Of a stretch of 64,000 nucleotides of DNA, positions 36,772 to 52,382 are shown piece by piece (the stretch's first letter is position 1; each line of letters opens with the position of its first letter). Below the pieces are notes generated by a model. It was not told the origin of the DNA. It was given only the letters and a program-made list of their open reading frames with translations, and did no database searches. The stretch covers positions 124,001 through 188,000 of the forward strand of contig NZ_LDZY01000006.1 of NCBI RefSeq assembly GCF_001029285.1, read 5' to 3'. This DNA comes from Desulfosporosinus acididurans. GTDB lineage: Bacteria > Bacillota > Desulfitobacteriia > Desulfitobacteriales > Desulfitobacteriaceae. The translations under genes were made by a program, and so were the position numbers.

Positions 36772-36803
36772 TCCAATACCCCCTCACATACTAATTTTTG
36801 ATC

Positions 36804-38135
36804 CTACTTACTTTGTGAGTTTAACGTATCAAAGAGAAACTGTTGGGTCCCTTCATAACCGATCCAGCATTTTTGCGGATAACCAACCCGGTCAAACACC
36901 GGCAATCCCGCTCTTAAATGGGGCTTCTTCAGCATATCTGCAGCTTGACGGCCATTGGAATTAGCAATGATCAACGTACTGGTCTGAGCCCCCTCTTCAA
37001 GAGCCTCTAAGTCTCCCACTTCAATGGGAACAGGCAGTGAGAGCCGGTGAATTCCCGCTGGGGAGGCCGCTAAGGCCAAGGTGATTTCCGCACCCACCTC
37101 AGCCAGGCAGGACGATAAACTATACAAAAGATCCATTTCCAAAGCAACAGCAACTCTGAGCTTGCCTAATTGATCATGAAAATCAACCAGAGTATCCAAC
37201 AACCGATCTCTTTGGCGCAGGACCTTTTCGGGGATCGGTCTGCCTGTTAGCCGAGCCAGAGTCAAAATAAAGGAGTCCGCTGCCGCCAGGCCGGTCAGGG
37301 AAGGAAAGTTAGTATGGGGAATCCCATACGTGCGTTTTAAAAAATCTCCGGCTTTTTCCATACTTAAACCAAAGGAAAAACAAGCTCTGCACTTGGCCAA
37401 ACGCCGAAAATCTTCCAGCAGTGTCCCGCCCTGTACCAAAGGAGCTGCTTCCAGCTCGGCATGCCCGTCCAGAGAGATCGACAAATCAGGAATCGTAATC
37501 GCCTGAAAACCGAATAAACTGACAATCTCTTTTAGTTCATCCACATCCCCCGGTGTTAGATGACATCCAGGCAGTAAGACAACGGCAGGGAGAGATTCAG
37601 ACTGACCTCTGGCCTTACTATCTTCCTCAGCCTTGGAGCTGCCGGAAACTTCCTCAGCAATTTCAGAATTAGCTGTCAAAGTAGTCAGCAGCGACTCCAC
37701 CGTCCGCTGATAACCTTCTTGCATAGAGCCGATATAATCCGGAGTACTGGCTAAAACAACCGGCAGATCCAGTAAGTCCGTCCGTTCCGAGCGAAGGCTG
37801 GACAGGGCACTCACCATATCATCGCCAAAGGTTTCCGTCAGACCGGTACTCATTACCCCGATGATTTGCGGTTTGTACTTATCGGCTGCCACGGCAATCC
37901 CTTTTTTGAGATATTCCCAACCGCCAAAGATCGCCGAATCTTCTAAAAGAGCGGTGGAATTCAAGGGAATCGGTTCTCTAAAATGGCGGGACAGCTGCAG
38001 ACGGATAAAGGAAGAACATCCCTGCGAACCATGGAGTAAGGCTAAAAGTCCATTCACTCCGAGAAAAGCCAAGGTCGCTCCCAAGGCTGGACTATTTTTT
38101 TGAGGATTACCCTGATACGATCTTGCATTCATCAT
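36804..38135 (-). CDS. nifN: Nitrogenase cofactor scaffold NifN
   Basis: Beta subunit of the NifEN scaffold that converts NifB-co into FeMo-co. The 443-residue protein is a NifK relative: LLALLHGSQGCSSFIRLQL, FREPIPLNSTALLEDSAIFGG and STGLTETFGDD. It is followed by nifX and starts 4 bases after nifE. GGGAGGG lies before the double ATG. Confidence 0.95.
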   Translation of the reverse strand: MMNARSYQGNPQKNSPALGATLAFLGVNGLLALLHGSQGCSSFIRLQLSRHFREPIPLNSTALLEDSAIFGGWEYLKKGIAVAADKYKPQIIGVMSTGLTETFGDDMVSALSSLRSERTDLLDLPVVLASTPDYIGSMQEGYQRTVESLLTTLTANSEIAEEVSGSSKAEEDSKARGQSESLPAVVLLPGCHLTPGDVDELKEIVSLFGFQAITIPDLSISLDGHAELEAAPLVQGGTLLEDFRRLAKCRACFSFGLSMEKAGDFLKRTYGIPHTNFPSLTGLAAADSFILTLARLTGRPIPEKVLRQRDRLLDTLVDFHDQLGKLRVAVALEMDLLYSLSSCLAEVGAEITLALAASPAGIHRLSLPVPIEVGDLEALEEGAQTSTLIIANSNGRQAADMLKKPHLRAGLPVFDRVGYPQKCWIGYEGTQQFLFDTLNSQSK

Positions 38136-38139
38136 GCTC

Positions 38140-39495
38140 TTACCCTCCCACCGGGGGAAATTCTGCTCTTAAATACCCCCAAACCGGACTAAAGACAGTT
38201 CGTGTTAAAGACTCGGCAAAGGTGACCATTCCCTCATAACCGGCATAAGGAAGTTTTCGGCCATGGTTAATATCGAGAAAGGGCGTTCGCGTTTTATGCG
38301 CCAAATACTTTGTCTTGCCTCCGGCAACAATCAGATCCGGTTTTTTCTCGGCAATAATCTTTAAAAATCCCGCTGAGCTGGTGTCTTCGATAATCTGAGC
38401 CGTGGGATCCATAAGTTCTTTCATCCGTTGAAAATCCTCCGGAGTGGAGTTTTGCGTCCCTCCCGCCAGAATATTGATCCCTAATTCCGCCAGAGTAGAA
38501 ACCATCGACCAGGTCTTAACACCTCCGGTAAACAAAATAGCCTGTTTATTCTCCAAGCGCTTTTTATGATGAGCGATGATTGCCCGCGTTTCCCTTTCCC
38601 GCTTCTGCACATAGGCCTGAGTTCTCACTAATAAGTCAGGGTCCTGAAGGGCTTTAGCGATAGCAATCAAAGTTGCGGAAGTATCATGAATTCCATAAAA
38701 AGAGCCTTCAATGAATGGTATCCCATAGCGAATTTCCATTTTCCGCACTAAGTTGGTCAGGCTCTTGGAACATATCAAGACATTCAGGCAGGCTCGGTGG
38801 GCCGAGCGCAGATCATCAAACTTGGCGTCTCCCGTAATGGCCGTTTGCAGTGTAATCCCCAGGTTTTTTAAGTCAGGCAGGATTCCCCAAAGGTCACCGG
38901 CGATGTTATATTCGCCAATCAGATTAATGGACAAGGGAATTTTCTCCGCCGAAACATCGCCGCTACCGATAACCCGTTCAAACAAAACTTCGCCGGCAAT
39001 GCGATTCCCGATATTCTTATCACCCAAAAAGCCCGGGGCATTGACAGGAATAACAGGAATGGGCAGTTCCGCCTCAGCCTCGGCACAAATTTTGCTCATA
39101 TCATCGCCGATCAGGGCAGAAACACAGGTCGCGTAGACAAAGATTGCTTTGGGCTGATGCTTGGCGGCAATTTCCAGGATAGCTTCTTTCAGCTTCAACT
39201 CCCCGCCGTAAATCACGTCGTTTTCCAGGAGATCAGTAGTCAACCCTCGGCGGTAGAGCTGGGAACCGGAGGAGCGAGCTCCTCGGTTATCCCATGAGTT
39301 CCCCGCACAGGCAATGGGACCGTGAACAAGATGAGCAGCATCCGTAATGGGCATCAGCACAACTCTGGCTCCATCATAAGCACAACTCCGCTCTGCGCCT
39401 TCGCCGGGCAGGGCCTTCATGCACAATTTCGGCGAACCGGCCTCCGCCAGGGAAGGTTTATCTTTGAGGTCCAATTTTGTCAGGTTGGTAAACAT
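38140..39495 (-). CDS. nifE: Nitrogenase cofactor scaffold NifE
   Basis: Alpha subunit of NifEN, a NifD homologue. The 451 residues contain RSCAYDGARVVLMPITDAAHLVHGP (split here at the P-cluster-type Cys region), ACAGNSWDNRGARSSGS, YATCVSALIGDD and GYEGMVTFAESL. The ATG at 39493-39495 with GGAGGGG upstream is preferred over an ORF extension to 39516. Confidence 0.95.
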   Translation of the reverse strand: MFTNLTKLDLKDKPSLAEAGSPKLCMKALPGEGAERSCAYDGARVVLMPITDAAHLVHGPIACAGNSWDNRGARSSGSQLYRRGLTTDLLENDVIYGGELKLKEAILEIAAKHQPKAIFVYATCVSALIGDDMSKICAEAEAELPIPVIPVNAPGFLGDKNIGNRIAGEVLFERVIGSGDVSAEKIPLSINLIGEYNIAGDLWGILPDLKNLGITLQTAITGDAKFDDLRSAHRACLNVLICSKSLTNLVRKMEIRYGIPFIEGSFYGIHDTSATLIAIAKALQDPDLLVRTQAYVQKRERETRAIIAHHKKRLENKQAILFTGGVKTWSMVSTLAELGINILAGGTQNSTPEDFQRMKELMDPTAQIIEDTSSAGFLKIIAEKKPDLIVAGGKTKYLAHKTRTPFLDINHGRKLPYAGYEGMVTFAESLTRTVFSPVWGYLRAEFPPVGG

Positions 39496-39521
39496 GAATG
39501 ACCCCTCCGTTCTCAACGCAT

Positions 39522-40940
39522 CTAACGCATTAATTCAAAATAGGTGTCTGTGGAATTCCTGTCCTTTTCCTCCAGAAAGGTATTGACAATCATGGTAATC
39601 AAATTAATAACCCCGTTATAACCAATGATCGGATAGCGGTGGAGATTCACCCGGTCGTAAATAGGCAGGCCGATGCGAATTAAGGGAATATCGGCATCGC
39701 GGGCAGCATATTTGCCGTGGCCGTCGCCGATCAACATGTCAACCGGTTCCGTCACCAACAAAGACCGCAGGTGCCAGAGATCTTTGCCGGGATAGAGTGT
39801 CGCGCCTTGACCGTAAGGACTGGAGGCAAGCAGCTTCTCCATCGCTTTCTTAAAGGCGGGGGTGGAGTTGGTACAAACGATATGAACAGGCTCACCGCCC
39901 ATTTCCAAGAGGAAGGAGACGACGCCGATCAGAATATCCGGATCGCCAAAAAGAGCAAACCTCTTGCCATGAATATATTGATGAGCATCTGTCATAGCAT
40001 CAACGGCCCGTCCCCGCTCACGGGTGATTTCCTCGGGAACATCCTGGCCTGTGAATTTGGCGATGGCTTCAATGAATCTGTCCGTTCCCCCCACGCCGAT
40101 GGGCATAGGAATTGTTTCCACAGGGACTCCTTTGCCTTCCAGGTACTTACCGGTTGCCGGAGTGGAATAGGACTGTAAGCATAAATAGCTCTTGGCATTT
40201 AGGGATTCCTTCATTTCCTGAATGGGGGTTCCGCCGGGGAAGAGCTCATAGGTGCCTAAATTCGGGGAATCTAAGACCTCACTGTGATCAGGAATAAGGG
40301 TGAAGGGAGCGCCCATGATTTTGAGATAGCGCTTATATTCCCGAAGATTCGAGGGATAAGTATCAAATCCAGGGACAACATAGAGCCTGTCGTTAAGTTT
40401 ATCCTCCTCTCTCGGCTCGCCTAAACAGTCAATAAGACCTTTAAGCATGGAGTCATAACCCATAATGTGCGACCCCTTAAAGCTCGGTGTATTGGCTAAA
40501 GCAACAGGGAAATCGTTAGGAATTGAACCTTGTTTTTTGGCGTTCCCTAAATAAGCCTTAATATCATCGCCAATAACTTCCGCCATACAGCTGGTGAAAA
40601 CCGCGATCAGCTGGGGCTTGTAAACGGTATAAGCATTCTTCAACCCTTCATGAAAGTTATTCTGTCCGCCAAAAACGGCCGAGTCCTCAGTCATGGAATC
40701 GGATACCGCCGCTACAGGCTCGCGGAAATGCCGGGCCAAGGTGCTGCGGAAATAAGCAGCACACCCTTGAGAACCATGGACAAAAGGCAGACATCCTTCA
40801 ATTCCCAAAGAACAAAGCAGGGCACCGAGGGGTTGACAGGCTTTAGCCGGATTAATGACCAATTTTTCACGGGCAAAATTCTTTTCCCGATATTCCATCG
40901 TATTAAGCCAATCTTTTGTGACCTTAGTACAAGTCTCCAT
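39522..40940 (-). CDS. nifK: Nitrogenase MoFe protein beta chain NifK
   Basis: Beta subunit of dinitrogenase; holds half of the P-cluster. The 472 residues show CQPLGALLCSLGIEGC, HGSQGCAAYFRSTLARHF and FTSCMAEVIGDD with P-cluster Cys ligands, then VDMLIGDGHGKY and GYNGVINLI. It is shorter than Azotobacter NifK because it lacks the long N-terminal extension, as in other anaerobes. Start at 40938-40940 (AAAGG upstream), 23 bases after nifD. Confidence 0.97.
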   Translation of the reverse strand: METCTKVTKDWLNTMEYREKNFAREKLVINPAKACQPLGALLCSLGIEGCLPFVHGSQGCAAYFRSTLARHFREPVAAVSDSMTEDSAVFGGQNNFHEGLKNAYTVYKPQLIAVFTSCMAEVIGDDIKAYLGNAKKQGSIPNDFPVALANTPSFKGSHIMGYDSMLKGLIDCLGEPREEDKLNDRLYVVPGFDTYPSNLREYKRYLKIMGAPFTLIPDHSEVLDSPNLGTYELFPGGTPIQEMKESLNAKSYLCLQSYSTPATGKYLEGKGVPVETIPMPIGVGGTDRFIEAIAKFTGQDVPEEITRERGRAVDAMTDAHQYIHGKRFALFGDPDILIGVVSFLLEMGGEPVHIVCTNSTPAFKKAMEKLLASSPYGQGATLYPGKDLWHLRSLLVTEPVDMLIGDGHGKYAARDADIPLIRIGLPIYDRVNLHRYPIIGYNGVINLITMIVNTFLEEKDRNSTDTYFELMR

Positions 40941-40963
40941 ATGCGACATCCTTTCTGCCCAAC

Positions 40964-42400
40964 TTATTTAGCCCAAGGAGCTTTAATTGATTTCCAGGTA
41001 GGGCTGTTAATGGCCATATCCATATCCCGCGCGAAAATGGGGAACCCTTGGTAACCATGATAAGGCCCTGAATAATCCCAGGAATGCATTTGCCGGAAAG
41101 GCAGACCCATCTTCTCAAAAACATATTTCTCTTTGATCCCTGACCCGACAAGATCTGGCTTTAGTTTGTTGACGAATTCTTCAAGTTCATAGGCTGTCAC
41201 ATCATCGTAAATAAGGGTCCCATCTTTAATATTGGCCATAGTTTTGTCATAATCTTCGCCGTGGGCAAATTCGTAACCCGTCCCGATTACCTCCATGCCT
41301 AAGTCCTCATAGGCCCCCACTACGTGCCGGGGTCTGAGTCCTCCTACATAAAGCATCACCTTTTTACCCTCAAGACGCGGGCGATAAATCTCAATAACCT
41401 TTTGCATTTCTGCTTCATACTTTTCTAGAACCGCATGAGCTTTTTCCATAATGACATCATCAAACATAGCGGCAATTTTAAGAACCGATTCTCTGATCTT
41501 CGTCGGACCAAAGAAGTTGAACTCCAGCCAAGGAGTGCCGTAAGTTTCCTCCATATGACGGGCCATGTAATTCATACTGCGATAACAGTGAATTAAATTC
41601 AGCTTGACAAGATGCCCGTTTTGCAGCATTTCCACAGTTGAATCCCCGGTCCAGATATTAACAACATTTAAGCCCATTTCTTCCAGAATTTTTTTGCTGG
41701 CCCAAGCATCGCCGCCAATATTGTAATCCCCGATAATCCCGACATCATAGGGACCGACGTCCCGTTTTGGGCCTTTGCCGATAAGGTGATCGCGGATGGC
41801 GTCATTGGCAATATGATGACCCAAAGACTGACTGATGCCCCGAAATCCCTCACAGCGAACGGGAATGACCGGCAGCTTCAGCTTCTCAGTCATACGCCGC
41901 GCCACGCTCTCAATATCATCACCGATCAACCCTACAGGACATTCCGAGAGGACAGAAACCCCTTTGGTATTGGGAAACAGCTCCACAACCTCTTCAATAA
42001 CTTTCTCCAGCTTTTTGTCTCCGCCATAGATGATATCGCTCTCCTGAAAGTCTGTGGTGAATAAAAAAGGGACAAAGTTATCAACACCGATCTCACCCTC
42101 AGCCAGATTCCTGCGGTTAGCCCAGGAGTAAAACCCGCAGCCCACGGGTCCATGGGAAATATGGGTAACGTCTTTTACCGGCCCCCAAACAACTCCTTTA
42201 GCTCCCGCATAGGCACACCCCCTGGCAGTCATCAGCCCCGGAACTGTTTTAGCGTTTGATTTGACAGCACAGCTGGAACACTCATTATTTTCTTTGACGG
42301 TGATATGTTTTCTCCGATTCTTCTTGGCCTTCTCCGGATAAAGCTCTAATACTTCTTCCACAACCTGTTTCCGGAAATCCGTTGTCTCTAATACACTCAT
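40964..42400 (-). CDS. nifD: Nitrogenase MoFe protein alpha chain NifD
   Basis: Alpha subunit of dinitrogenase; holds FeMo-co and half of the P-cluster. The 478 residues show [43 protein letters not shown], the cofactor Cys region [14 protein letters not shown] and the cofactor His region [17 protein letters not shown]. It fits the molybdenum enzyme rather than Vnf/Anf, since no delta subunit gene follows. ATG 42398-42400 follows GAGGGAGGA. Confidence 0.97.
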
Positions 42401-42436
42401 AAGGCTGTCCTCCCTCATTTCCATCGCTGCCCGTTA

Positions 42437-43294
<858 letters not shown>

Positions 43295-43392
43295 CTAACA
43301 GGAAATTTGCATTTACCATCCTAATCGTTATCTTTCACCCTTCTCCAGGGACTATTTAACTCTTAACTTCTACTCTTAACACTTGACTCTTA

Positions 43393-43486
43393 CTCTTAAC
43401 TCTTAACTTTCAACTCTTAACTTTCAACTCTTAACTTTCGACTCTCAACTTTCAACTCTTAACTTTCGACTCTTAACTTTCGACTC
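43393..43486 (-). repeat. Fourteen-unit NAG triplet array (7-nt period) in nif mRNA
   Basis: On the transcribed-sense (minus) strand there are 14 consecutive GAG or AAG triplets, each separated by exactly 4 bases (UUGA, UUAA, UCGA or similar). On the plus strand CTC/CTT start at 43393, 43400, 43407 and so on every 7 bases to 43484. Looser CTN triplets continue to 43360. HutP of Bacillus is known to bind NAG triplets spaced by 4 nt. The array fills the nifI2-nifH gap and a HutP-family gene lies upstream of the operon. Confidence 0.9.
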
Positions 43487-43493
43487 TTAATAC

Positions 43494-43877
43494 TTAAACG
43501 ACAGCTTCGCCTCCGGTTTCTCCGGTACGCACCCGGACGACTTCTTTCAGCGGACAGACAAAGATTTTCCCGTCTCCCATATGCCCCGTCTGGTTTGCTT
43601 TAATAATTAAATCCACAACCTCCTGAACTTGATCATCCTGCACCACGATAGTTAACAGCCGTTTGGGAATCCAGTGGAATTGGGACTCATCCGGGTGTAC
43701 CTGATCAATCACGGTATTCAATTCCGGATCAACCTCAGCGGCCCATCCTCCAATTCCACCTTGTTTGCCGCGGCCCTCGACGCTTTGAATGGTAAGGGCG
43801 GGAAATCCGGCATCTTCGAAGACTTTCTTAGTGGCGGGAACTTGATGCCGCCGTATAAATGTCATAATTTCTTTCAT
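43494..43877 (-). CDS. nifI2: Nitrogen regulatory PII-like protein NifI2
   Basis: NifI2, with NifI1, forms a complex that binds and inhibits NifDK when fixed nitrogen is plentiful and is relieved by 2-oxoglutarate and ATP. The 127-residue PII fold shows MTFIRRHQVPATKKVFEDAG, an extended T-loop (GRGKQGGIGGWAAEVDPELN and on) as in NifI2, and GHMGDGKIFVCPLKEVVRVRTGE. Starts 3 bases after nifI1. Confidence 0.95.
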   Translation of the reverse strand: MKEIMTFIRRHQVPATKKVFEDAGFPALTIQSVEGRGKQGGIGGWAAEVDPELNTVIDQVHPDESQFHWIPKRLLTIVVQDDQVQEVVDLIIKANQTGHMGDGKIFVCPLKEVVRVRTGETGGEAVV

Positions 43878-43880
43878 AAA

Positions 43881-44198
43881 TTACAACCCCTTTGTTCCAG
43901 AACTTACGGTATAAGCCTCTTCCACTTCCGTCACAAAAATTTTCCCATCCCCCATGGTTCCCGTTTTCGCTTTTTCGAGGATAAGGGAAACGGCCTCTTC
44001 CAGTTTGTAATCTTCAATCACTAAGAGCAGAAGCGTCTTGGGAAACTCATCGTAAACAACGTCGCCAATTCTGATTCCTTTCGTTCTGCCGCGCCCAAAG
44101 ACATGCATTTTCGTTAAGGAAGGCATCCCTGCCTGAGCCAAGGACTCAGCGACCTCCTCCGTTTTATCAGGCCTGACAATTGCTCTAATCATTTTCAT
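43881..44198 (-). CDS. nifI1: Nitrogen regulatory PII-like protein NifI1
   Basis: Partner of NifI2. The 105-residue PII protein has MIRAIVRPDKTEEVAESL, the T-loop GRGRTKGIRIGDVVYDE and GTMGDGKIFVTEVEEAYTVSSG. Placed first in the operon, ahead of nifI2 and nifH, an order also known from heliobacteria; in methanogens and many clostridia the pair follows nifH. ATG 44196-44198 follows GAAGGAGGATGG. Confidence 0.95.
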   Translation of the reverse strand: MKMIRAIVRPDKTEEVAESLAQAGMPSLTKMHVFGRGRTKGIRIGDVVYDEFPKTLLLLVIEDYKLEEAVSLILEKAKTGTMGDGKIFVTEVEEAYTVSSGTKGL

Positions 44199-44213
44199 AG
44201 AAACCATCCTCCT

Positions 44214-44273
44214 TCAAGTTTTAGCGCCTATAATTTTTTGTTTAAATCCGCTGGAACCTAGGTAAACGATCAA
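44214..44273 (-). CDS. 19-residue leader ORF upstream of nifI1
   Basis: A TTG at 44271-44273 preceded by AGGAGGTGATGCGA opens a frame of 20 codons ending TGA at 44214-44216; the peptide is MIVYLGSSGFKQKIIGAKT. The stop overlaps the region of the nifI1 ribosome binding site (TGAAGGAGG), so translation of the leader and nifI1 would be coupled. No family is recognised. It could be a true leader peptide controlling the operon, or a chance frame with a good ribosome site. Confidence 0.5.
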   Translation of the reverse strand: MIVYLGSSGFKQKIIGAKT

Positions 44274-44296
44274 TCGCATCACCTCCTGCAGTGAAC

Positions 44297-44345
44297 TGAA
44301 GTTTTCGAATGTCCACCACCACTTATAGAAGGGCGGTAACCAAAT
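44297..44345. repeat. Fragment of repeat family B in the nif leader
   Basis: gaactgaagttttcgaatgtccaccaccacttatagaagggcgg holds the ccacttatagaagg module of repeat family B. Confidence 0.5.
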
Positions 44346-44362
44346 GCCCTTGAGAAAAGTCC

Positions 44363-44410
44363 TGAGAAAAAGACAAAGAGAGCCCTAATTTCTAAAATTA
44401 AGGGCTCTCT
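44363..44410 (-). terminator. Intrinsic terminator in the nif leader (candidate attenuator)
   Basis: AGAGAGCCC (44402-44410 in sense) pairs with GGGCTCTCT (44377-44385), extended by TAATT/AATTA, and followed on the minus strand by TTTGTCTTTTTC. It lies 90 bases before the leader ORF and 165 before nifI1. It may end hutP transcripts or act as an attenuator. Two UAG triplets 7 bases apart (44394-44392 and 44387-44385) are in its loop and 3' arm. Confidence 0.75.
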
Positions 44411-44420
44411 AAAACACTTT

Positions 44421-44455
44421 ACCGCTCCAAACCATTCTTTGGTTTGGTGCCCGGT
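44421..44455 (-). other. Stem-loop preceding the nif leader terminator
   Basis: CCAAACCA-ttctt-TGGTTTGG is a perfect 8-bp stem, enclosed by ACCG...CGGT. It is just upstream of the terminator in the transcript. It could be an alternative structure or a protein-binding hairpin. The remaining 44456-44710 is AT-rich leader without a gene. Confidence 0.55.
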
Positions 44456-44710
44456 TATTCAATTATCCCAATAGGCTCTAACAAAATCACTGTTTCTCTT
44501 CAACACTGTTACACAACTATACGTTTTTACAAGACTCTTTTTACAAAACTAATCTTTCGCAACTACACATTTTACACTACTGTTAAATGCAGGATGTCTA
44601 ATCAGCCTTTTAATCGGCCTTAAGATTTCAGTTTCCCCTGTTTAAACCCATCTTCAATACAATCTCAAACTCTAATGCCGAATTCTTTTCAGCCAGGAAC
44701 CCCTATGAAA

Positions 44711-45139
44711 TCAAAGATGCATAAATCCCAAACCGACACGAGAATGTTCCAAAAGAGGGTGTAAGGAGGACCGACCAAAAATTGCTACCGCAATCCACTC
44801 TGTATCCGTTGTTAAACCGATTTTTAGAGCAAAACTGGCATTGCTGTTCGTATGAATAAAAATACTGTTGCTGGCTTCCAGTGTTGCATGGATCAGAGCG
44901 TGAATTTTGCGCCCTTCCTTGGGAATTACTCCCGTGTTAAAAGCAGCTGAGATCACGGAATTGGTTAGTTTCCCCGTATGCTGCAGAGTCGAGACCGTTC
45001 CCCCAAGTTCTGTCACCCCGCAGCGAATAGCTGCAGATTCCTGAAGAGCTTTCTTGAGCCTTTCTTCTTCCTCTCTCGTTTCAGTCATAGCCAAAAGGAT
45101 TGCGGAACGTTCCAAGGAAGGCTTCGCTTTAACTTTCAC
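44711..45139 (-). CDS. HutP-family RNA-binding antiterminator
   Basis: HutP proteins are hexameric RNA-binding regulators that, with a ligand (histidine in Bacillus) and Mg2+, bind NAG-triplet RNA and prevent termination. The 142-residue product matches the family: ERSAILLAMTETREEEE at the N-terminus, NTGVIPKEGRKIHALIHATLEA with the metal motif HALIH (residues 80-84), TEWIAVAIFG and LEHSRVGLGFMHL at the C-terminus. The Glu that follows the C-terminal His in Bacillus (LEHE) is Ser here, and the Arg-containing ligand loop is not evident, so the ligand may not be histidine. No hut genes are in the window. GTG at 45137-45139 is chosen (GGGG 7 bases upstream); an ATG at 45208 would run through a terminator hairpin. 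It lies directly upstream of the nif operon on the same strand. Confidence 0.85.
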   Translation of the reverse strand: MKVKAKPSLERSAILLAMTETREEEERLKKALQESAAIRCGVTELGGTVSTLQHTGKLTNSVISAAFNTGVIPKEGRKIHALIHATLEASNSIFIHTNSNASFALKIGLTTDTEWIAVAIFGRSSLHPLLEHSRVGLGFMHL

Positions 45140-45163
45140 AGAACATCCCCTTCCCTTTAACGA

Positions 45164-45206
45164 CAAAAAAAGCCGCCAGATATCATTTAGATATCTCGAC
45201 GGCTTC
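45164..45206 (-). terminator. Intrinsic terminator immediately before the hutP-like gene
   Basis: On the minus strand AGCCGTC..AGATATC pairs with GATATCT.GGCGGCT around TAAAT and is followed by TTTTTTT. It ends 25 bases before the GTG start, so it can act as an attenuator of the hutP-like gene, or end the transcript from murJ 350 bases upstream. Confidence 0.8.
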
Positions 45207-45361
45207 ATTGCCTATTGGTTAACTAATAATAGATATAATACCTAAGAATTGGGTTTTTGTCACAACTGATATGTTTCCATTTTCCAGGAAATAACGTTAT
45301 TTAACCAACGTTTCATGATAGCAACGTCTAAATCCATCGATTTACTAAAAATTTCGTTCAA

Positions 45362-45545
45362 CAAGCGAACTCGTTCAGCTAATGCTGAGCATCGGGGCTT
45401 CAAATACAATAATGTCCAGTGGACATTATTGCCGAGCCGCCTTTCCCAATAGGAATACTTAGCGGCGAAGGAGGACTCTACCCCACCTGAAGTTAACGAA
45501 GGACCCACCCCCACTTATAGAAGCGGGGGCCTTAAAAACTAGTTC
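45362..45545 (+). repeat. Repeat family B, copy 5 (full)
   Basis: All modules are present: gaactcgttcagctaatgctgagcatcggggcttc, AATAATGTCCagTGGACATTATT, gccgagccgcctttcccaata, tagcggcgaaggaggactctacccc, gaagttaacgaaggacc and CCCCCACTTaTAGAAGcGGGGG. It lies between murJ and the hutP-like gene. Together with the hutP leader this fills 45207-45556; no gene is seen. Confidence 0.85.
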
Positions 45546-45556
45546 AAATCGTAGTC

Positions 45557-47138
45557 TTAATGGGCCTTTTTAAACCTCCGCTGCAGTAAACCAACGGTTT
45601 GCTCGAACTCTTCCATTTTCAAGAACTTTGCCGACAGGCCAAAGACTAAAGCTCCAAGAACCGTGCCGGAAATCAGGACAATAAGCGAGGAAATAGTTTT
45701 TACCCCTAAAAACCTCGTCACCCACTGGCTCCAGATCCAAATGACAAAGGCCATCAGCAGAGAAGAAAGCAGAGTCTTTAAGCCGGTTATCAACATATTT
45801 TTCCCATCCATTTTGCCCAATTTTTTACGCAGGACATAGAACAATAACAACATATTGACAACGGCTGAGACTGTATCAGCCAGGGCAAGTCCCCCGGCAG
45901 CCAGAGGATGAACCAGCAAAAACATACATAATATATCAATGGCCATGGAGATTAGTCCCAAAATCACCGGCGTCCAAGTATCCTGCAGGGCATAGAAAGC
46001 CCGAGGCAAAATCTGAATCACCGACTGAGCAGAAATTCCCAAACAGAAATAGAAGAGAGGGACTGTTGTCTGCAGCGTATCTTCAGCCGTAAAATGCCCA
46101 TGTTGAAAGAGAGTACGTATGAGAGGAAAACGGAGAACAATCATGCCCACAGAAACAGGAAGGGTGATAAAAACGACCATCCGTATGGTGCGGGAAATTG
46201 TTTCACGAAGTCCATCCCATTGTTTTAAAGCAGCCTGCTCTGTCATCGTTGGAAAAGAGGCTACAGCAATTGCTAAAGCAAAGATCCCGACAGGCATTTG
46301 GAAAAGACGAGATGAATTCCAAATAGCAGAAATACTCCCTGGGAAAAACGGGCTCGACCCAAAATAGCTTATGTTTATTTACAGCAATCTGAATTTGATT
46401 TAGAGAATAACTCAAAATAATCGGCACTGCCAAAGCAGCAATCCGGCGTACACCGGGATGACGCCAATCTATAATAGCGTGATAACGTATTCCAACCTTG
46501 CGCAGAGCAGGGATTTGAACCGCAAAATTAACCAAAGCACCCACAACTACTCCCACAGCAAACCCAGAAATACTCTCCGGCTTCGTAGGGTTCGCCAGGA
46601 TCGTCCCAAAAAAAATAACACATGCATTATAGAGCACAGTCCCCAAAGCAGACGGCCAAAAGATTTTATAAGAGTTCAAAACTCCCATGGTCAACCCGCT
46701 AAAAGCCATAAATAAGGGCTGCATCAGCAGAATTCGCGTCAACTGAGTTGTGAGAGCTATATTCTTAGCTTGGAACCCGGGAACCATAAGCTTTAAAAAC
46801 TCCGGCGTGAAAAAAAGTCCAAATACTACGAATACCGCAAGCACCATGAAAATTATATTTACAACGGAACTTACTACTCGCCAGCCTTCATCTTCATTTC
46901 CTTGAGCAATATATTTGGAGAAGACAGGAATAAAAGCAGCACTTAAAACTCCACCCACCAATAGCCAATAGAGCAGGTCAGGGAGAATAAACGCTGTATT
47001 ATAGGCATCCGTAACGCTACTTTGCCCAAAAAATCCTGCAATTAATGTTGTGCGTAAAAAACCCAGGAGTCGCGAAGCCATTTGCGCTGCCATTAAAAAT
47101 CCGGCGGCTTTTAAAAGTGTACGGTTGGTTGATGACAT
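45557..47138 (-). pseudogene. murJ: Lipid II flippase MurJ, frameshifted
   Basis: MurJ (MviN) flips lipid II across the membrane. Two overlapping frames together give the whole protein of about 520 residues. The N-terminal frame (47138 down) reads MSSTNRTLLKAAGFLMAAQM and stays in register to ILSYSLNQIQIAVNK; the C-terminal frame reads YFGSS, GSISAIWNSSRLFQM and PVGIFALAIAVASFPTM to the end at 45557. The switch is at about 46367-46373, where the 7 bases GCTTATG (plus strand) look inserted; removing them joins NK to YFGSS as in other MurJ. More than ten transmembrane helices are expected. Either the gene is inactive, or the base count here is wrong, or it is phase-variable. The essential function would then need a second flippase elsewhere. 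Confidence 0.85.
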
Positions 47139-47207
47139 TTCTAACCTCTTCTCCCCATCATCCTAGTCTCACCTTCCGCATTATAGCATTTTTCACGAGA
47201 TAAAGAA

Positions 47208-47260
47208 AACTTAGCTGACGCTCGATGCGAAGACACTGTCTTCGCACGTATTAGTTCTTC
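47208..47260. repeat. Repeat C, copy 2
   Basis: gaaaacttagctgacgctcgatgcgaagacactgtcttcgc contains the perfect palindrome GCGAAGACAcTGTCTTCGC; shared with 30917-30975. Confidence 0.6.
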
Positions 47261-47336
47261 TTGCAGTATTCAGCCAAAAGCCATACTTTCTGATAGTACC
47301 GTAAAACTTAGTGATTCTTCCTTCTTATCCATTATG

Positions 47337-48440
47337 TTATCTATTAGACGTTCCTTTAAGATAATCCGCCAAAATATTGGCGACGGCTTCCGCCGCACCG
47401 TTAGCTTCCTCTAAAGTATTGAGCTGACTTCCAAATTCCAGCAATATGCCGCCGTTAGAAAGATGTTGATTGTAGCGGGCATCGTCGGCGTAACTAATAT
47501 TGGCCACAAAAAGACCGGGATACTTCTTATTCCCCAATGCAATAAGTTTCCTTGCCAAAGCATCATTGATTTGCCAATGAGGGTTTTTCTTACCAATGAC
47601 AACCATTACCGGGCTAACATCTTTACCCTTAACACTGACAGTCTCCTTGGACACCCCCGGCGGAAATCCATCCCGATGAAGGTCGATTAAGATTTTAATG
47701 GTCGGATAATCTTTAAGAAGTTTGGCTGCCGTATTAATAGAACGGGAATATGCCGTCATGAAATTTTCTCCATCATGGATGGTTAGAGAATGAGCGGCTT
47801 CAATGCCATGTTGTTCCAGGGACTTTTTCAAAGTTTCTCCTACCGTAACAACGTCTCCATTTTCCCCTTGCTTGCGGTCCGGACCTCCGTCTCCGGAATA
47901 ACATTCACTGTTATGCGTATTGTAAATTCCCACAAGAACATCCTTGGAACCGGAAACTGGCGGTGCAGGAGTCGTTGCCGCATTATTACTCACTTTAGGC
48001 GGGCTTTCAATAGGTTCAAGTATTGGTCCCTCAAACTCCGGATCTTTAGGATTATAAGCCCACCCTAACCAAGTCGGCCCTTCAGGAGGCGGAGAAAAAT
48101 AGCTAAGAAAAAACGTGCGCGGATCGGCGACATTAACACCTGTTAATAAATACATTCCAGTAGCTAAACTCTGACTCCTTACCTCATCTAAGCGGGCACG
48201 CTGCGGTTGAGAGTAACCCGGAATCCCTTCCAGCAAGACAGCTTCCAAAGGAAAGGATTGCTGAGTTAAAAACTGGACAAATTGGACCGAGCTTTCATTT
48301 TTAATTGAATATATAAAGCTTAGCAGGACAAGGCAGCAGACCAGGCCAAAAAACAACCCTCTAATCCATTCTTTAAATTTCCAGGCTTTAATTTTTTTAT
48401 TATTGTAATGATTATAATGATAATAATTTTCCCGCAACAA
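47337..48440 (-). CDS. spoIIP: Stage II sporulation protein P (SpoIIP)
   Basis: SpoIIP is an amidase/endopeptidase that, with SpoIID and SpoIIM, hydrolyses septal peptidoglycan during engulfment. The 367-residue protein has a basic N-terminus, one transmembrane helix (about 28-48), a variable Pro-rich linker and the amidase-like domain with VGIYNTHNSECYSGDGG, LIDLHRDGFP and GGILLEFGSQLNTLEEA. It lies downstream of the holin-like gene; gpr, its usual neighbour, is not in the window. Confidence 0.95.
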   Translation of the reverse strand: MLRENYYHYNHYNNKKIKAWKFKEWIRGLFFGLVCCLVLLSFIYSIKNESSVQFVQFLTQQSFPLEAVLLEGIPGYSQPQRARLDEVRSQSLATGMYLLTGVNVADPRTFFLSYFSPPPEGPTWLGWAYNPKDPEFEGPILEPIESPPKVSNNAATTPAPPVSGSKDVLVGIYNTHNSECYSGDGGPDRKQGENGDVVTVGETLKKSLEQHGIEAAHSLTIHDGENFMTAYSRSINTAAKLLKDYPTIKILIDLHRDGFPPGVSKETVSVKGKDVSPVMVVIGKKNPHWQINDALARKLIALGNKKYPGLFVANISYADDARYNQHLSNGGILLEFGSQLNTLEEANGAAEAVANILADYLKGTSNR

Positions 48441-48550
48441 AGAACTTGTCCCCCTTTCTCCTATTGAAGAAATATGAGGGACAAGTCTTAAGTAGAACTA
48501 AAAAGTAATTTCTGTCTTGATGTTTATCGTTGTTAGCCCCAAAAAATTAA

Positions 48551-48880
48551 CTAACGGAGTTTTGTCGGCACAAAACTATCTACAATTCCAATAACCAGGG
48601 AAGCTAATAAAGCCCCAATAATGGAAACTGAAATGGAACCGGGAACGATAAACTGGCTCAAATAAATAACTACAGCTGCAGTTATGAAGCCAATAGAACC
48701 TCGTCCCATCCGTGAAACCTTGTTCCCAAAGGCCAATTCAACCAAATATCCTAAAACAGCAATGACCACCGCTGCAATTAGGGCACCTGTGAAACCGGCA
48801 ACTCGCAGGCCGGGAACAATATAGCTCACTAATAACAAAACCAAAGCAGATACGATAAACCTTACGATCATACCTATCAT
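48551..48880 (-). CDS. Phage-holin-like (YvlD/4TM) membrane protein
   Basis: A 109-residue membrane protein with three to four hydrophobic helices, resembling the family IV holin/YvlD type (IVRFIVSALVLLLVSYIVPGL at the N-terminus, NKVSRMGRGSIGFITAAVVIYL). Members are widespread and not linked to phage. Function unknown. Located between rpsT and spoIIP, where gpr is often found. Confidence 0.8.
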   Translation of the reverse strand: MIGMIVRFIVSALVLLLVSYIVPGLRVAGFTGALIAAVVIAVLGYLVELAFGNKVSRMGRGSIGFITAAVVIYLSQFIVPGSISVSIIGALLASLVIGIVDSFVPTKLR

Positions 48881-48995
48881 TGATAGACCCCCCCTTATTT
48901 ATTTTCTCGCTTTTTTTGAAAGCAATCTTAAACTACGAAACTAGTTTTAACAAAAAACAAGAAATTTATTTATTCCATTCTCATCCTAATTTACC

Positions 48996-49024
48996 TTGAT
49001 AATTATAAATCAAAATGTTAAAAT
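48996..49024 (+). promoter_or_regulatory. Promoter of rpsT
   Basis: TTGATA (48996-49001), 17-base spacer, TAAAAT (49019-49024), 50 bases before the GTG. Confidence 0.7.
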
Positions 49025-49073
49025 ATAGTTTGTGTACAACTGAGGATATCGCAACCAAAGGGGGTGACTATAA

Positions 49074-49346
49074 GTGCCAAACATTAAATCTGCCATCAAA
49101 AGAGTCGAGTTGGGCAAAGCTCGCATGATTAAGAATGCTGCTGCGAAATCAGCTTTACGTACGACCATCCGACGTTTTGAAGAGTCAATCAGCACAGATT
49201 CTGAGACTGCAGCACTCGCTTTGAAAAAGGCTACTCGTGCTTTGGATAAAGCCTCCTCCAAGGGTTTAATTCATAAGAACCTAGCAGCTCGCAAAAAGTC
49301 CCGTCTGACTAAGAGATTTCATACACAATTTTCCAAAGTAGGTTAA
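49074..49346 (+). CDS. rpsT: 30S ribosomal protein S20
   Basis: A basic, all-helical 16S rRNA-binding protein of 90 residues, of usual length. Diagnostic segments: MPNIKSAIKRVELGKAR, NAAAKSALRTTIRRFEE, KGLIHKNLAARKKSRLTKR. It starts at GTG with AAAGGGGGTGACTATAA upstream, and stops 20 bases before a strong terminator. It is read on its own from a plus-strand promoter, divergent from the spoIIP side. Confidence 0.97.
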   Translation: MPNIKSAIKRVELGKARMIKNAAAKSALRTTIRRFEESISTDSETAALALKKATRALDKASSKGLIHKNLAARKKSRLTKRFHTQFSKVG

Positions 49347-49367
49347 GCTTATATTTCTTACGATGAC

Positions 49368-49408
49368 GCAAAAAGAGAGCGACGATTTATCGTCGTTCTC
49401 TTTTTGTG
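49368..49408 (+). terminator. Terminator of rpsT
   Basis: GCAAAAAGAGAgCGACGAt pairs with aTCGTCGtTCTCTTTTTGTGC; the 3' arm supplies the T run. Confidence 0.92.
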
Positions 49409-49476
49409 CTCATTACTAGGCGAGTTCATCATCTTCAGTAAAAACGAGTTCATCATTTTTGATAATGGACAACGTT

Positions 49477-50340
49477 TTACATATAGGACTTGTCGATAGA
49501 AAAGCCGCGACCGTTTACCTTATTAACTTGGTTAATTATCATAAACGCATTAGGATCTATAGAAAGGGCCAGCTTATTAAGCAAAGGCAGTTCTCTGTTT
49601 GAGACTACTGTCAGAAGAACTGGGGTTTTATCGTGGAAGTAACCTGTCTCTGCTTGAATTATGGTGGAACCTCTGTCCAAATGGTGGATAATCATCTGGT
49701 TAATTTCCTTGTATTTTTTACTGATGATTTTTACCTGCATACGGGATTGCCCGAGCAAAAGCACTTTATCTAAGACAACGGTATAGATAAGTACCAGCAA
49801 GATTCCATAAAGCACTTGCTCCTTGTTGGCAAACAGCATTTGTAATAACAAGATTGTGAAGTCGAAAGCGTACAAAGTGATGGAAACAGAAACCCCAAAT
49901 TTCTTATTCAATACCAGGGGAGGTATATCCATGCCTCCGGTGGATGCACCTGCTCTAATGACAAGTCCAAGGCTTAAGCCGATCATAAGACCGGCATAGA
50001 TAGCAGAAAGCAAATGGTCAGAAGTCATGCTCTGCAGAAATGGGAAATTTTGAAAAACGCCAAGAATTAATGGATAGTAAAAGGTGCTTATCAAGGTAGT
50101 CAGAGCAAAGGCTCTGCCCAGTACCAGTGCGCCGAGGATAAACATGGCAATATTGAAAAGCGAAACAAAGAGTGTAATAGGGATATTAAACTGATGATAA
50201 AAGAATAAGGCTAATCCTGTTGAGCCTCCAGTTATCAATCCGCTAGGGAGAATAAAGGCAGTTACTGCCAAAGCATAAAGAGTATTGCCGAGGAGAATTA
50301 AACCAATAGTTTTGAAGATGGACCAATTAATTTTAACCAT
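49477..50340 (-). CDS. YitT family membrane protein
   Basis: A 287-residue protein of the YitT/DUF161 family with five or six transmembrane helices (about 12-180) and a C-terminal cytosolic DUF2179 domain (YFHDKTPVLLTVVSNRELPLLNKL, then DPNAFMIINQVNKVNGRGFS). Family hallmarks are GLITGGSTGLALFF and GASTGGMDIPPLVL. Function unknown, possibly transport. Preceded by a repeat-filled gap. Confidence 0.9.
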   Translation of the reverse strand: MVKINWSIFKTIGLILLGNTLYALAVTAFILPSGLITGGSTGLALFFYHQFNIPITLFVSLFNIAMFILGALVLGRAFALTTLISTFYYPLILGVFQNFPFLQSMTSDHLLSAIYAGLMIGLSLGLVIRAGASTGGMDIPPLVLNKKFGVSVSITLYAFDFTILLLQMLFANKEQVLYGILLVLIYTVVLDKVLLLGQSRMQVKIISKKYKEINQMIIHHLDRGSTIIQAETGYFHDKTPVLLTVVSNRELPLLNKLALSIDPNAFMIINQVNKVNGRGFSIDKSYM

Positions 50341-50447
50341 ATAAATCTACTCCTTGTAAATTCTTTCACTAAATGACAGCCTAGGAAAAACCTTATGTTA
50401 AGATTTATAATTTTAATTCACTTCAGCCGGATAGAATAACTAGTTTA

Positions 50448-50487
50448 GCTCATGAGGTCAGAGCTTTAGCTGAACGAGTTCACTATA
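50448..50487. repeat. Fragment of repeat family B beside the IS relic
   Basis: gctcatgaggtcagagctttagctgaacgagttcac has the agctgaacgagttc module. The IS relic ends directly after it. Confidence 0.6.
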
Positions 50488-50975
50488 TTGACACTCCCAC
50501 GGCTGAAGCCGGTGGGATTCTTGGGTGATTAAACCAAAATCTATTTCTAGTATCGGAGTATGACCCCAAGTTCAAGGCTATGCCATTAGCCCGTCCTAGA
50601 GCAGTACAAAATGGTACTCTAGGCTGATAGCCTGTTACCAGCTACCACAGTTGCAGAGATTATATTTATCGCCCCAACTCGATCTCGATGAGCCATAAAT
50701 CCACATTCACATTGATACTTTCTGAATGTTCATCACATAGTTCTTGCAGAATCTCCCTAAACCTTCTATCTACGTCCTTTACTAATATCTTGCGTCTGTA
50801 GCGTAGGCAAAAAACAAAATGATAGTTGATTAAAGAAACAGTGGTGGTTGTTCGTCGATATTCTTGTCCCATATCATTATTTTATCCGTTGTTCAATGAT
50901 ACTACAACGGATTATTTAGAAACGAAACGGGAGCCGCCTTCATCCCACGATTGAAACCGTGGGCTTTTGGCTACG
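50488..50975 (-). mobile_element. Internally deleted IS200/IS605 relic
   Basis: Both ends have the family's subterminal hairpins: cccacggctgaagccggtggg (50497-50516) on the right and cccacgattgaaaccgtggg (50944-50963) on the left. Inside is the 5' half of tnpA joined to the last part of tnpB. It has no full transposase, so it could only move with help from a related element. Confidence 0.85.
50640..50872 (-). pseudogene. tnpA-tnpB fusion remnant
   Basis: From 50872 the frame reads RRTTTTVSLINYHFVFCLRY and RRKILVKDVDRRFREILQEL, the start of an IS200-type Y1 transposase. It loses the HUH and Tyr motifs: after CDEH the sequence jumps to the C-terminal zinc part of TnpB, readable in another frame as CECGFMAHRDRVGAINI. 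The joint lies at about 50715-50725. The conceptual 68-residue product is not expected to be active. Confidence 0.8.
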
Positions 50976-51029
50976 TTTCTGTAAAGAAGTGCACATCTAA
51001 GTTACTAGGCAAACTTTGTATTTTCCGAT

Positions 51030-51060
51030 CGTAAGCCCCCCACTTCAAGTGGAGGGCTCA
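51030..51060. repeat. Short inverted repeat near IS relic
   Basis: agccccccacttcaagtggagggct is a 12-bp hairpin like the last module of repeat family B. ttgggggtagagtcaacccgctaagcc follows and also recalls that family. The 50976-51120 stretch has no gene. Confidence 0.5.
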
Positions 51061-51123
51061 TATCTTGCTTCGTTGGGGGTAGAGTCAACCCGCTAAGCCA
51101 TGAAATTGTTACGTAAACCATAA

Positions 51124-51168
51124 AACATAGAGCAGCTAAGCATTCGGCCTAGCTGCTCCATATTTTAT
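51124..51168 (-). terminator. Terminator of the MFS gene
   Basis: GAGCAGCTA (51131-51139) pairs with TAGCTGCTC, extended by cataaaa/ttttatg on both sides. It lies directly after the stop codon at 51174 in the minus direction. Confidence 0.75.
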
Positions 51169-51173
51169 GCGGT

Positions 51174-52382
51174 TTAATATGCATTTTCCTTTAGGCAAAG
51201 CTTTTTATACACTTTAAAATACACCCAGATAGCATTTATCAGCAACAATGCGCTGGATACAAAAAAGACATATTGTATCCCCAAGTAGGCTGCCACCTGC
51301 CCGCCTAAAACAGCACCGCCAAATACGCCCAGATACCCCGCAGACATGGTAAATCCAAAAACTGCGCCAGTAAGAGAATCTGGTGTAATTTTCTTAACAA
51401 GGGTATTAATTGAAGGATTCAATCCGGCTATTGCTAATCCTAATAAAAAGCGCAGTCCTATCAGTTGCCATGGATTTTTTACAAAAGCTTGGGGTATATA
51501 AATAATTCCGGCAGCAATGAGTGCAACTAAAACAACCTTATGCGCACCTATTTTATCGGAAAGTCGGCCCAGCCTGGGAGCTGAAATAATATTTGCCAAC
51601 CCTGAAGCCGAGAATGCTAATCCGGCCAATATTGCGACATGAGCAGCGGCAGTACCTTGGGTTAAGTGGGTAACGTAAACAGTTACAATAGGTTCTATAG
51701 AATATAGTCCTAGAGTTAAAATAAAAAAGGTTACAAGCAGAACAATAGTTAAACTCTTTTCGGGGATTTCTTCCCATGTCTTTTTAATACTCTTTGCCTT
51801 TTTATCCTGACGAACAAAAGATTCTTCTACAAACAAAGCGGTCATAATAAATGCAATCAGCAGCAATGCTCCTGTTATGAAAAATACAGGTTGAAAACCA
51901 AGGTACTCTTCAATTAAGCCGCCAATAATTGGGCCTAACAAAGAACCTGCAATACTTCCGGTTGAAAGCGTACCCAGCGCATATCCAGCGTGTTCCTTAT
52001 CCGTTTGAGTTGCAATCAAGGCAGTACAAGCTGTGCTATAACCTGTTATTGCGCCCTGTAATAATCTTAGTCCAATCAGTACATATACATTCGGCGCAAA
52101 CCCCATGCAGCCGATAATGAGAGCCATACCAAGGCTTGCCCGCAGAATCATAGGCTTTCGCCCAACTTTGTCGGCAATATGACCCCAAATCGGCGAGAAA
52201 ATAGCGGAAATTATATAGGTAATACCAAAAGCGATTCCGGAAAGTTTGGCAATGGAAGATGCATTATGAACCCCCAAATGCTGAATATAAAGGGGCAATA
52301 CCGGGGCAATTTGACTCATTCCTATACCTGCTACAAACATTCCAAACCAGCAAACGAATAAATTTCTTTTCCAAATTGGCAT
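51174..52382 (-). CDS. MFS transporter (multidrug-type efflux)
   Basis: A 402-residue major facilitator with 12 predicted helices. The loop 2-3 motif is seen as GHIADKVGRKPMIL and again as RLGRLSDKIGAHKV in the second half, and motif C-like GPIIGGLIEEYLG at helix 5. It is close to drug-efflux MFS proteins; the substrate is unknown. The ATG at 52380-52382 is preceded by GGAGGCTTATTTTT; the frame runs 70 codons further but that part belongs to a hydrolase relic. Transcription likely comes from the operator-promoter at 52691-52736. Confidence 0.9.
   Translation of the reverse strand: MPIWKRNLFVCWFGMFVAGIGMSQIAPVLPLYIQHLGVHNASSIAKLSGIAFGITYIISAIFSPIWGHIADKVGRKPMILRASLGMALIIGCMGFAPNVYVLIGLRLLQGAITGYSTACTALIATQTDKEHAGYALGTLSTGSIAGSLLGPIIGGLIEEYLGFQPVFFITGALLLIAFIMTALFVEESFVRQDKKAKSIKKTWEEIPEKSLTIVLLVTFFILTLGLYSIEPIVTVYVTHLTQGTAAAHVAILAGLAFSASGLANIISAPRLGRLSDKIGAHKVVLVALIAAGIIYIPQAFVKNPWQLIGLRFLLGLAIAGLNPSINTLVKKITPDSLTGAVFGFTMSAGYLGVFGGAVLGGQVAAYLGIQYVFFVSSALLLINAIWVYFKVYKKLCLKENAY

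Follow-up and report, generated by a model that had tools for sequence, protein, structure and literature searches.

The locus described here raises the question why a gene of the HutP family stands at the head of a set of nitrogenase genes, and which RNA its product might read. It lies in a stretch of 64,000 nucleotides from Desulfosporosinus acididurans (contig NZ_LDZY01000006.1; called the window in the following, with all coordinates given as positions within it). On the minus strand of this window the HutP-family gene is followed by nifI1, nifI2, nifH, nifD, nifK, nifE and nifN. In Bacillus, HutP binds as a hexamer together with histidine and Mg2+ to NAG triplets at 4-nt spacing and blocks termination in the leader of the hut operon. 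A preliminary description of the window proposed that a protein of this type with another ligand acts on the nif mRNA, and assigned its site to an array of 14 NAG triplets in the gap between nifI2 and nifH.

We propose that the nif operon is gated by a HutP-type antitermination switch located in the hutP-nifI1 leader, a reading to which we assign a probability of roughly 0.8. Its basis, on the level of sequence, is the linkage of the genes, a conserved leader element and its covariation, a NAG triad, the overlap of this triad with a terminator, the co-occurrence of element and protein, and a different triplet spacing in histidine leaders. We consider an action of a HutP-type protein on the nif mRNA very probable, and for Desulfosporosinus-type bacteria and heliobacteria the comparison suggests an RNA-level switch that turns on nitrogenase. 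The idea that NAG triplets control nif is well supported by this analysis, with a terminator switch at another site and with another spacing than the preliminary description had assumed. Compared genomes and loci are labeled G and L and contigs C; the genome of the window is G000.

The leader element between hutP and nifI1

The leader between hutP and nifI1 contains a conserved RNA element (44367 to 44460, minus strand) consisting of a hairpin (P1), three NAG triplets with 5-nt spacers, and an intrinsic terminator. Its layout can be written as CCGGGCACC-AAATC...GATTT-GGAGCGG-AAAAGTGTTTTAGAGAGCCC...GGGCTCTCTTTGTCTTTTT. The window copy has an upper P1 hairpin CCAAACC...GGTTTGG (44427 to 44447), enclosed by a lower CCG/CGG stem, followed by the triad GAG-N5-AAG-N5-TAG (44409 to 44427) and by the terminator AGAGAGCCC...GGGCTCTCT with a T-rich tail (44367 to 44410), which was read in the leaders and by folding. 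Since the terminator stem includes the last AG of the triad, binding of HutP and termination would be mutually exclusive. The predicted fold of the element has an energy of -34.9 kcal/mol (z -4.93). A simple terminator scan had missed 44367 to 44410 because the ungapped stem leaves a loop above the limit of the scan.

The element is present in all 27 nif leaders and in all five leaders of Fe-only nitrogenase (anf) operons, the latter carrying two elements in tandem. Two alignments were made, A1 with 42 and A3 with 61 rows, and the window copy reaches 99.8 bits with the model R1. Alignment A3 holds 61 of 118 model matches, including one weak forward match before amtB (L080, 24.4 bits). Dropped were matches on the opposite strand (approximately 20-38 bits, representing the terminator read backwards and not counted as elements), other weak matches, duplicates from overlapping loci (L098, L100) and near-identical copies (L048, L049, L051, L053). 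Among the 42 copies two-sided changes occur in 13 of 23 base pairs; in the 61 more diverse copies 8 of the 9 pairs of P1 and the lower stem changed on both sides. In either case none of 500 shuffles scored as high.

An exact NAG-N5-NAG-N5-NAG with variable N, termed 8/8 for its two steps, is found at the terminator of 47 of the 61 elements. This number rises to 50 if the AG of P1 is counted, without which the triad of the elements in G027, G038 and G039 is incomplete. Other terminators of the fetched sequence possess a triad at the same place in 3 of 87 cases, compared to 34 of 43 element-like terminators. With Rfam 15 no match at the gathering threshold was obtained for window positions 36000 to 52000, for 43260 to 45300 (searched at E 5) or for the loci of four relatives; the only weak match near the element was rhtB on the opposite strand (24.4 of 55 bits). 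The element between hutP and nifI1 is the probable target of HutP.

A further triad, CAG-N5-AAG-N5-CAG, is located upstream of the element (44490 to 44508) and could represent a first HutP site. An upstream AG triad of period 8 occurs in 23 of 34 leaders compared to 9.0 expected (standard deviation 2.4; at most 17 in 200 shuffles), and one of period 7 in 11 leaders compared to 9.1 expected. Counted over all upstream triads, period 8 is also the highest (63, expected 12.3 with standard deviation 3.7).

The nif-linked HutP protein

The protein was previously described as a HutP-family member of 142 residues, encoded at 44711 to 45139 with a GTG start, and this assignment was confirmed. The longer open reading frame from 44711 to 45208, which starts with ATG at 45208 and encodes 165 residues, matches Pfam HutP (PF09021) with 125.6 bits at a cut-off of 25; the 142-residue frame represents one possible start. 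Both the HALIH motif and the C-terminus LEHSRVGLGFMHL align with HutP chains of the PDB. The residues H79, H83, E130 and H131, i.e. the HxxxH motif and the C-terminal EH, are invariant in 24 rows of nif-type proteins (a decayed copy in G005 not included) and in eight mixed rows. In B. subtilis HutP these core histidines have a metal role.

A loop of histidine HutP (RG...LGN.LRTVGLRF), which has a ligand role there, is missing from the nif-linked protein: alignment A5 has a gap of 13 columns at this position and a differing segment before it. For this reason the ligand is probably not histidine. We consider 2-oxoglutarate as a guess, which by analogy to L-histidine in HutP might possibly chelate the metal. 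With the equivalog model of histidine HutP (PRK03065) three nif-type HutPs score 37-38 bits, compared to 177-183 bits for three histidine HutPs from the same bacterial family, all of which pass the cut-off. The location in a hut operon does not apply to the window protein, which has nif downstream, and its genome contains two HutP genes only and no hutH.

In a tree of 51 HutP proteins the 27 nitrogen-linked ones form one clade (support 99/98) separate from three plasmid-borne histidine HutPs; several outer branches of this tree are long and their placement is unsure. The sequences closest to the window protein are those of G024, which belongs to the same genus, and G008.

Linkage and co-occurrence with nitrogenase genes

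To describe the distribution, two paralogues were distinguished: HutP-A, with more than 50% identity to the window HutP, and HutP-B, with 26-37% identity. Among 45 genomes of the same bacterial family HutP-A was found in 35 and HutP-B in 40. A total of 32 of the 40 HutP-A loci lead on the same strand into nif (27) or Fe-only nitrogenase genes (5). The window itself belongs to the former: the order described before, a HutP-family gene preceding nifI1-nifI2-nifHDK on the same strand, is borne out by P-II matches in Pfam for nifI1 (43881 to 44207) and nifI2 (43494 to 43877), and by NCBIfam profiles for nifH, nifD, nifK, nifE and nifN (e.g. TIGR01287 for nifH, the first structural gene of nifHDKEN, 42437 to 43264). 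Three of the 27 loci linked to nifI1-nifI2-nifH (G022, G033, G041) have approximately 2-2.6 kb intervening. The five remaining loci are second nitrogenase operons with a HutP copy of their own; they and a sixth operon in G016 are of the Fe-only type (AnfD 1079-1089 bits, cut-off 874). Of the other eight HutP-A loci, those of G011, G019 and G020 run into a contig end or stop close to it, and that of G016 belongs to a genome from which Mo-nif has been lost. The G032 locus is on a short contig among other genes. In the remaining three genomes (G003, G005, G007) hutP is followed by amtB-like or ABC-transporter genes. In G016 (L046, L142), where no nifD exceeds the cut-off, hutP and its element have been kept, and the anf operon has two elements with only a remnant of hutP.

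The covariance model detects the element in 33 of the 45 family genomes at E ≤1e-9, and at E 1e-5 it gives no hit in 28 genomes that belong to other families of the order. Both HutP-A and the element are present in 33 genomes, HutP-A alone in two, the element alone in none, and neither in ten (Fisher p 2e-8, uncorrected for kinship). The two genomes with HutP-A only are G020, where hutP lies at a contig end, and G005, which has no nifD and in whose decayed HutP the HxxxH histidines are lost. G007 lacks nifD, yet contains HutP-A, with elements ahead of amtB-glnK and of an ABC transporter; this indicates that the element follows HutP and not nif. The model TIGR00836 confirmed an ammonium transporter downstream of an element in G007, G003, G022, G039 and G041, and in one locus (L138) the element precedes a set of ABC-transporter genes followed by a nifH homologue.

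Outside the family, Heliobacterium chlorum and H. mobile possess the order hutP-element-nifI1, with elements of 55.7 and 54.8 bits. Their P1 is rebuilt from other bases, the 8/8 triad is intact, and the P-II genes and nifD are confirmed. In G122 and G368, whose HutP groups with those of Heliobacterium, the element has a 9/8 triad. A survey of 398 genomes of the phylum yielded HutP-A-like genes in 25, of which 20 do not belong to the family. We further considered 18 wider loci, namely 16 of the 22 loci L200-L221 and the actinobacterial loci L186 and L189. Six were left out (L202, L209, L215, L219, L220, L221) since the next gene was opposite, directly adjacent or close, at a contig end, or the HutP was of the B type. 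A terminator follows hutP in 15 of these 18 gaps, and period 8 is the commonest triad.

Some additional observations were made on these loci. By eye, the HutP-A-like genes of other families (L202-L221) precede genes resembling acyl-CoA carboxylase, CoA-transferase, malonate decarboxylase and transporter genes, and several of the gaps show NAG or GUG triads at a terminator. HutP-B precedes aroH-like and other aromatic-pathway genes in six loci read by eye (L083, L084, L085, L089, L091, L093). As a partner of the element HutP-B was set aside; it is present in element-free genomes such as G004, G043 and G044. The element also stands before a protein of 506-524 residues of no clear family (L133 at G000:C7:23935-24029, L134, L135, L139, L140, L143, L144), which in L133, L134, L135 and L144 lies downstream of ammonium-transporter and P-II genes. 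The L134 copy matches no Pfam or NCBIfam family and the L133 copy weakly matches sigma-70 region 4; this protein is possibly a nitrogen regulator. Finally, L136 (G032:C63) contains three elements; they precede genes for a methyltransferase and for a protein that weakly matches MORN, and genes resembling those of ABC transporters. Between them lies a protein that has an excisionase-type domain and resembles a molybdopterin biosynthesis protein.

Triplet spacing in histidine leaders

The gene hutH is present in 30 of the 45 family genomes, and 14 of its leaders were read, 12 fetched ones and two next to a nif-type hutP (G038, G039). An open reading frame with the ending of histidine HutP precedes hutH in nine of the 12 fetched loci; the three that were scored are the histidine HutPs compared above. 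NAG-N4-NAG-N4-NAG abuts the terminator in nine of the 14 leaders, in four others the third triplet is TTG, and the remaining one lacks a leader of this kind. An 8-nt step at the terminator was found in none of the 14 hutH leaders, and a 7-nt triad at the terminator in none of the 61 nitrogen elements. Leaders between hutP and hutH and nitrogen elements hence share their layout and differ in the step, 7 nt compared to 8 nt. No other observation hints as strongly as this difference that HutP paralogues might use the spacing to sort their operons.

In G038 and G039 hutH is located just upstream of the nif-type hutP (L070:1251-2735, L071), with clusters of UAG at period 7 and a 7/7 triad at the terminator of hutH itself.

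The heptad array between nifI2 and nifH

The array in the nifI2-nifH gap was correctly described: 14 successive NAG triplets with exact 4-nt spacers are counted in the sense strand of nif (43389 to 43486). Nowhere else in the window do such runs exceed four units, and the array has the top TRF score among the tandem repeats of the window. A chance run was rejected on these two grounds, which indicate an imperfect 14-bp (2 x 7) tandem repeat. The recurrence in related genomes that had been suggested for both partners holds for the HutP gene next to nif and not for the array. Across 27 measured gaps the longest runs are 14 units in the window, six in G010, and five each in G024 and G008; the remaining 23 gaps, 20 of which are 32-98 bp long, have at most three units. 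Arrays of the heptad GAATTAA exist at two other places of the genome, G000:C7 near 280021 and G000:C29 near 2473. Given its poor conservation in the gaps and the heptad arrays at these two sites, the array seems to be a tandem repeat that has expanded locally. The two sites are near-identical copies of each other with GAATTAA arrays of differing length.

An ANTAR-like signal in the leader of hutP

A second potential switch is found ahead of hutP itself. The motif GGCAANGNNGCC (GGC-AANGNN-GCC) occurs within 400 nt of hutP in 34 of the 40 loci, the six exceptions being G021 and the five copies linked to anf. The window version is a hairpin with a hexaloop, GGC-AAUGAA-GCC (45201 to 45212), and it overlaps a terminator hairpin seen by eye (45165 to 45203), so that the two together cover 45165 to 45212; this overlap was read in the window and not counted elsewhere. 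The hairpin resembles the 13-nt consensus AGCAANGRRGCUY given for ANTAR targets, and thus the second hairpin of such a target, in the accessible part of PMC3369931. The same part of that article mentions putative ANTAR targets for nitrogenase genes in Pelobacter, and targets before nitrogenase and ammonium-transport genes in other bacteria. No first ANTAR hairpin with a hexaloop of its own was obvious by eye upstream in the hutP leaders. We regard an ANTAR-type control of the hutP leader as a lead; two antitermination steps may act in series.

Proposed mechanism and alternative explanations

By default, the nascent RNA would fold P1 and then the strong terminator at 44367 to 44410, and transcription would stop before nifI1. 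An active nif-type HutP, being a paralogue of histidine HutP and probably a metal-bound hexamer, would bind the triad at 44409 to 44427, helped by the upstream triad at 44490 to 44508. The bound protein could keep the 5' arm of the terminator unpaired, allowing the polymerase to continue into nifI1-nifI2-nifHDKEN. With a ligand that reports nitrogen status, the terminator would be blocked when nitrogen is short. A protein would be needed for this: when a GGGC/GCCC helix is forced, the window element folds with -20.0 kcal/mol, and the unaided terminator fold is better by approximately 15 kcal/mol. The hexamer, the metal, RNA binding, antitermination and a signal of nitrogen poverty as ligand are inferred. 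The same clade of HutP is predicted to control anf and amtB in relatives, and the ANTAR-like terminator hairpin before hutP might add a preceding antitermination step. The full picture would be that HutP paralogues tell operons apart by NAG spacing (N4 for histidine, N5 for nitrogen), that an ANTAR-type and then a HutP-type switch act in series on one transcript, that a nitrogen-status metabolite is the HutP ligand, and that nif, anf and amtB are read. It is a tentative proposal to which we give somewhat less than even odds.

Several results weigh against a HutP switch in the leader. Shared ancestry partly explains the co-occurrence and the linkage. The window HutP reaches 36.8 bits with PRK03065, below the cut-off of 155. 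The triad deviates from 8/8 in 14 of the 61 elements (six 8/10, five 8/9, one 9/8, two without a triplet), and 11 of the 34 leaders have no upstream period-8 triad. Upstream triads of periods 6, 10 and 12 are also above the shuffles (36, 23 and 27 compared to approximately 12-13). For the 18 wider loci period-8 triads are only modestly enriched and do not exceed the shuffle range (7 compared to 2.4, standard deviation 1.5, maximum 8). Within the 420 nt that were read, period-8 triads also occur in two hutH leaders, at a distance from the terminator. Lastly, the alternative GGGC/GCCC antiterminator helix is weak as a conserved feature: 98.8% of the cells pair, and 97.3% still do so if the partner is slid by one column.

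The claim of the preliminary description that the 14-unit array is a HutP site, with separate control of nifHDK, can call on perfect NAG-N4 units in the sense RNA with the 7-nt step of the histidine leaders, on the period-7 UAG array upstream of hutH in G038 and G039, and on shorter arrays at the same place in G010 and in the two genomes with the closest HutP sequences. The best argument against it is the spacing: since hut leaders have a 7-nt and nitrogen elements an 8-nt step, the array is an improbable target of the nif-type HutP. Added to this are a conservation of at least five units in only four of 27 gaps, the GAATTAA arrays elsewhere in a genome that contains no hutH, and a terminator scan which lists none on that strand in the gap (the same scan that also missed the leader terminator). 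On conservation and spacing the array was rejected as target of the nif-type HutP, and the claim is highly improbable. What stands of the earlier proposal is a very probable action of a HutP-type protein on nif mRNA, to which the linkage in 32 of 40 loci and the intervening NAG triad and terminator contribute.

Alternatively, the leader element might be a switch read by a metabolite (a riboswitch) or by an ANTAR protein, with hutP being a mere member of the operon. A conserved GGCA/AG internal loop in P1 indeed looks like a specific recognition site, ANTAR targets precede nitrogenase and ammonium-transport genes elsewhere as mentioned above, and ANTAR proteins are present in 41 of the 45 family genomes. 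However, these are found in 32 of 33 genomes with and in nine of 12 without the element, and HutP-A is by far the better discriminator (33 of 33 and two of 12). The P1 loops have 4-8 nt, with hexaloops in six of 61 copies and A1/G4 in three of these, which is unlike the dual hexaloop of ANTAR targets. Several HutP-family loci with other downstream genes also have NAG triads at their terminators, and no Rfam family matches the element. Loop form and distribution led us to reject ANTAR as reader of the hutP-nifI1 element, while keeping it for the hutP leader, and a switch read without HutP is on the whole unlikely. The element might also be nothing but a constitutive terminator of hutP which separates the hutP and nif units, the nif promoter lying downstream; an intrinsic terminator after a gene is ordinary. 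This explanation has hardly any probability left: ten invariant columns in 61 copies and the covariation of P1 exceed the needs of a terminator, the rarity of the triad at other terminators and the tandem copies before anf speak against it, and there are copies with no hutP directly ahead of them, those preceding nif in G003 (in tandem) and amtB in G007.

Further features of the locus

A long Shine-Dalgarno-like stretch, AGGAGGTGATGC, lies before nifI1 (44271 to 44289) and was seen in the printed leaders with or without a tiny open reading frame. Stretches of this kind (AGGAGGTGATGCGATGG-like) stand 3' of the terminator in most of these leaders and exceed the normal length of a Shine-Dalgarno sequence; those in relatives come with tiny variable open reading frames or none. 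Perhaps they represent a stabilizer of the mRNA. A promoter-like GTGACA-17-TATTAT upstream of hutP (45235 to 45263) is a consensus match only, three such matches being found in the region compared to 3.4 expected. Two similar stretches (CTTCTATAAGTGG...AACTTCAG) flank hutP at 44280 to 44340 and 45470 to 45530, and are perhaps the ends of a mobile element.

Comparison with known systems

The preliminary description knew of no HutP control of nitrogen fixation, and our literature search likewise retrieved no report of HutP together with nitrogen fixation or nif, most subscription papers being outside its coverage. Should the proposed switch hold true, HutP would change from the regulator of a single operon to an antiterminator family with several regulons. 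In Gram-positive anaerobes and heliobacteria, both nitrogenases (Mo and Fe-only) and the uptake of ammonium would gain a control at the RNA level. Such a switch would also offer a natural experiment on the recognition of triplet spacing by an RNA-binding protein.

A structured RNA before a nif-related gene is also known from the nifV motif of Geobacter, a weak riboswitch candidate (PMC11109978). Its four representatives precede nifV and enclose the ribosome site in their structure, and the accessible part of that article describes no terminator or HutP for it. The ANTAR attenuators (EutV, NasR, AmiR) share the antitermination of nitrogen-metabolism operons, according to the accessible part of PMC3369931, and the leader of the nif-linked hutP has a lookalike of the second ANTAR hairpin over its terminator. 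Unlike ANTAR targets, the hutP-nifI1 element has NAG triads and no dual hexaloop, and it tracks HutP-A and not the ANTAR genes.

The closest system is that of HutP and the hut operon in Bacillus subtilis (PDB 1wpu, 4ok9). The proteins belong to the same family, with HxxxH and the C-terminal EH conserved in both. In plasmids of Peptoclostridium (7/7) and Cytobacillus (8/7), the NAG triplets read between hutP and hutH lie directly against an intrinsic terminator, and the same layout is found in the hutP-hutH leaders of Desulfosporosinus-type genomes; the hut leader of Priestia has no regular triad. The hut system of B. subtilis has two NAG clusters, as stated in the accessible part of PMC7430163, and the upstream period-8 triad might be a counterpart in the nitrogen leaders. 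Different from hut are the regulon (nif, anf and amtB), the step of 8 nt in place of 7 nt, the additional hairpin P1 and the missing histidine-HutP loop. Most likely, HutP antitermination itself is the known part of the system and its new regulon the novel one.

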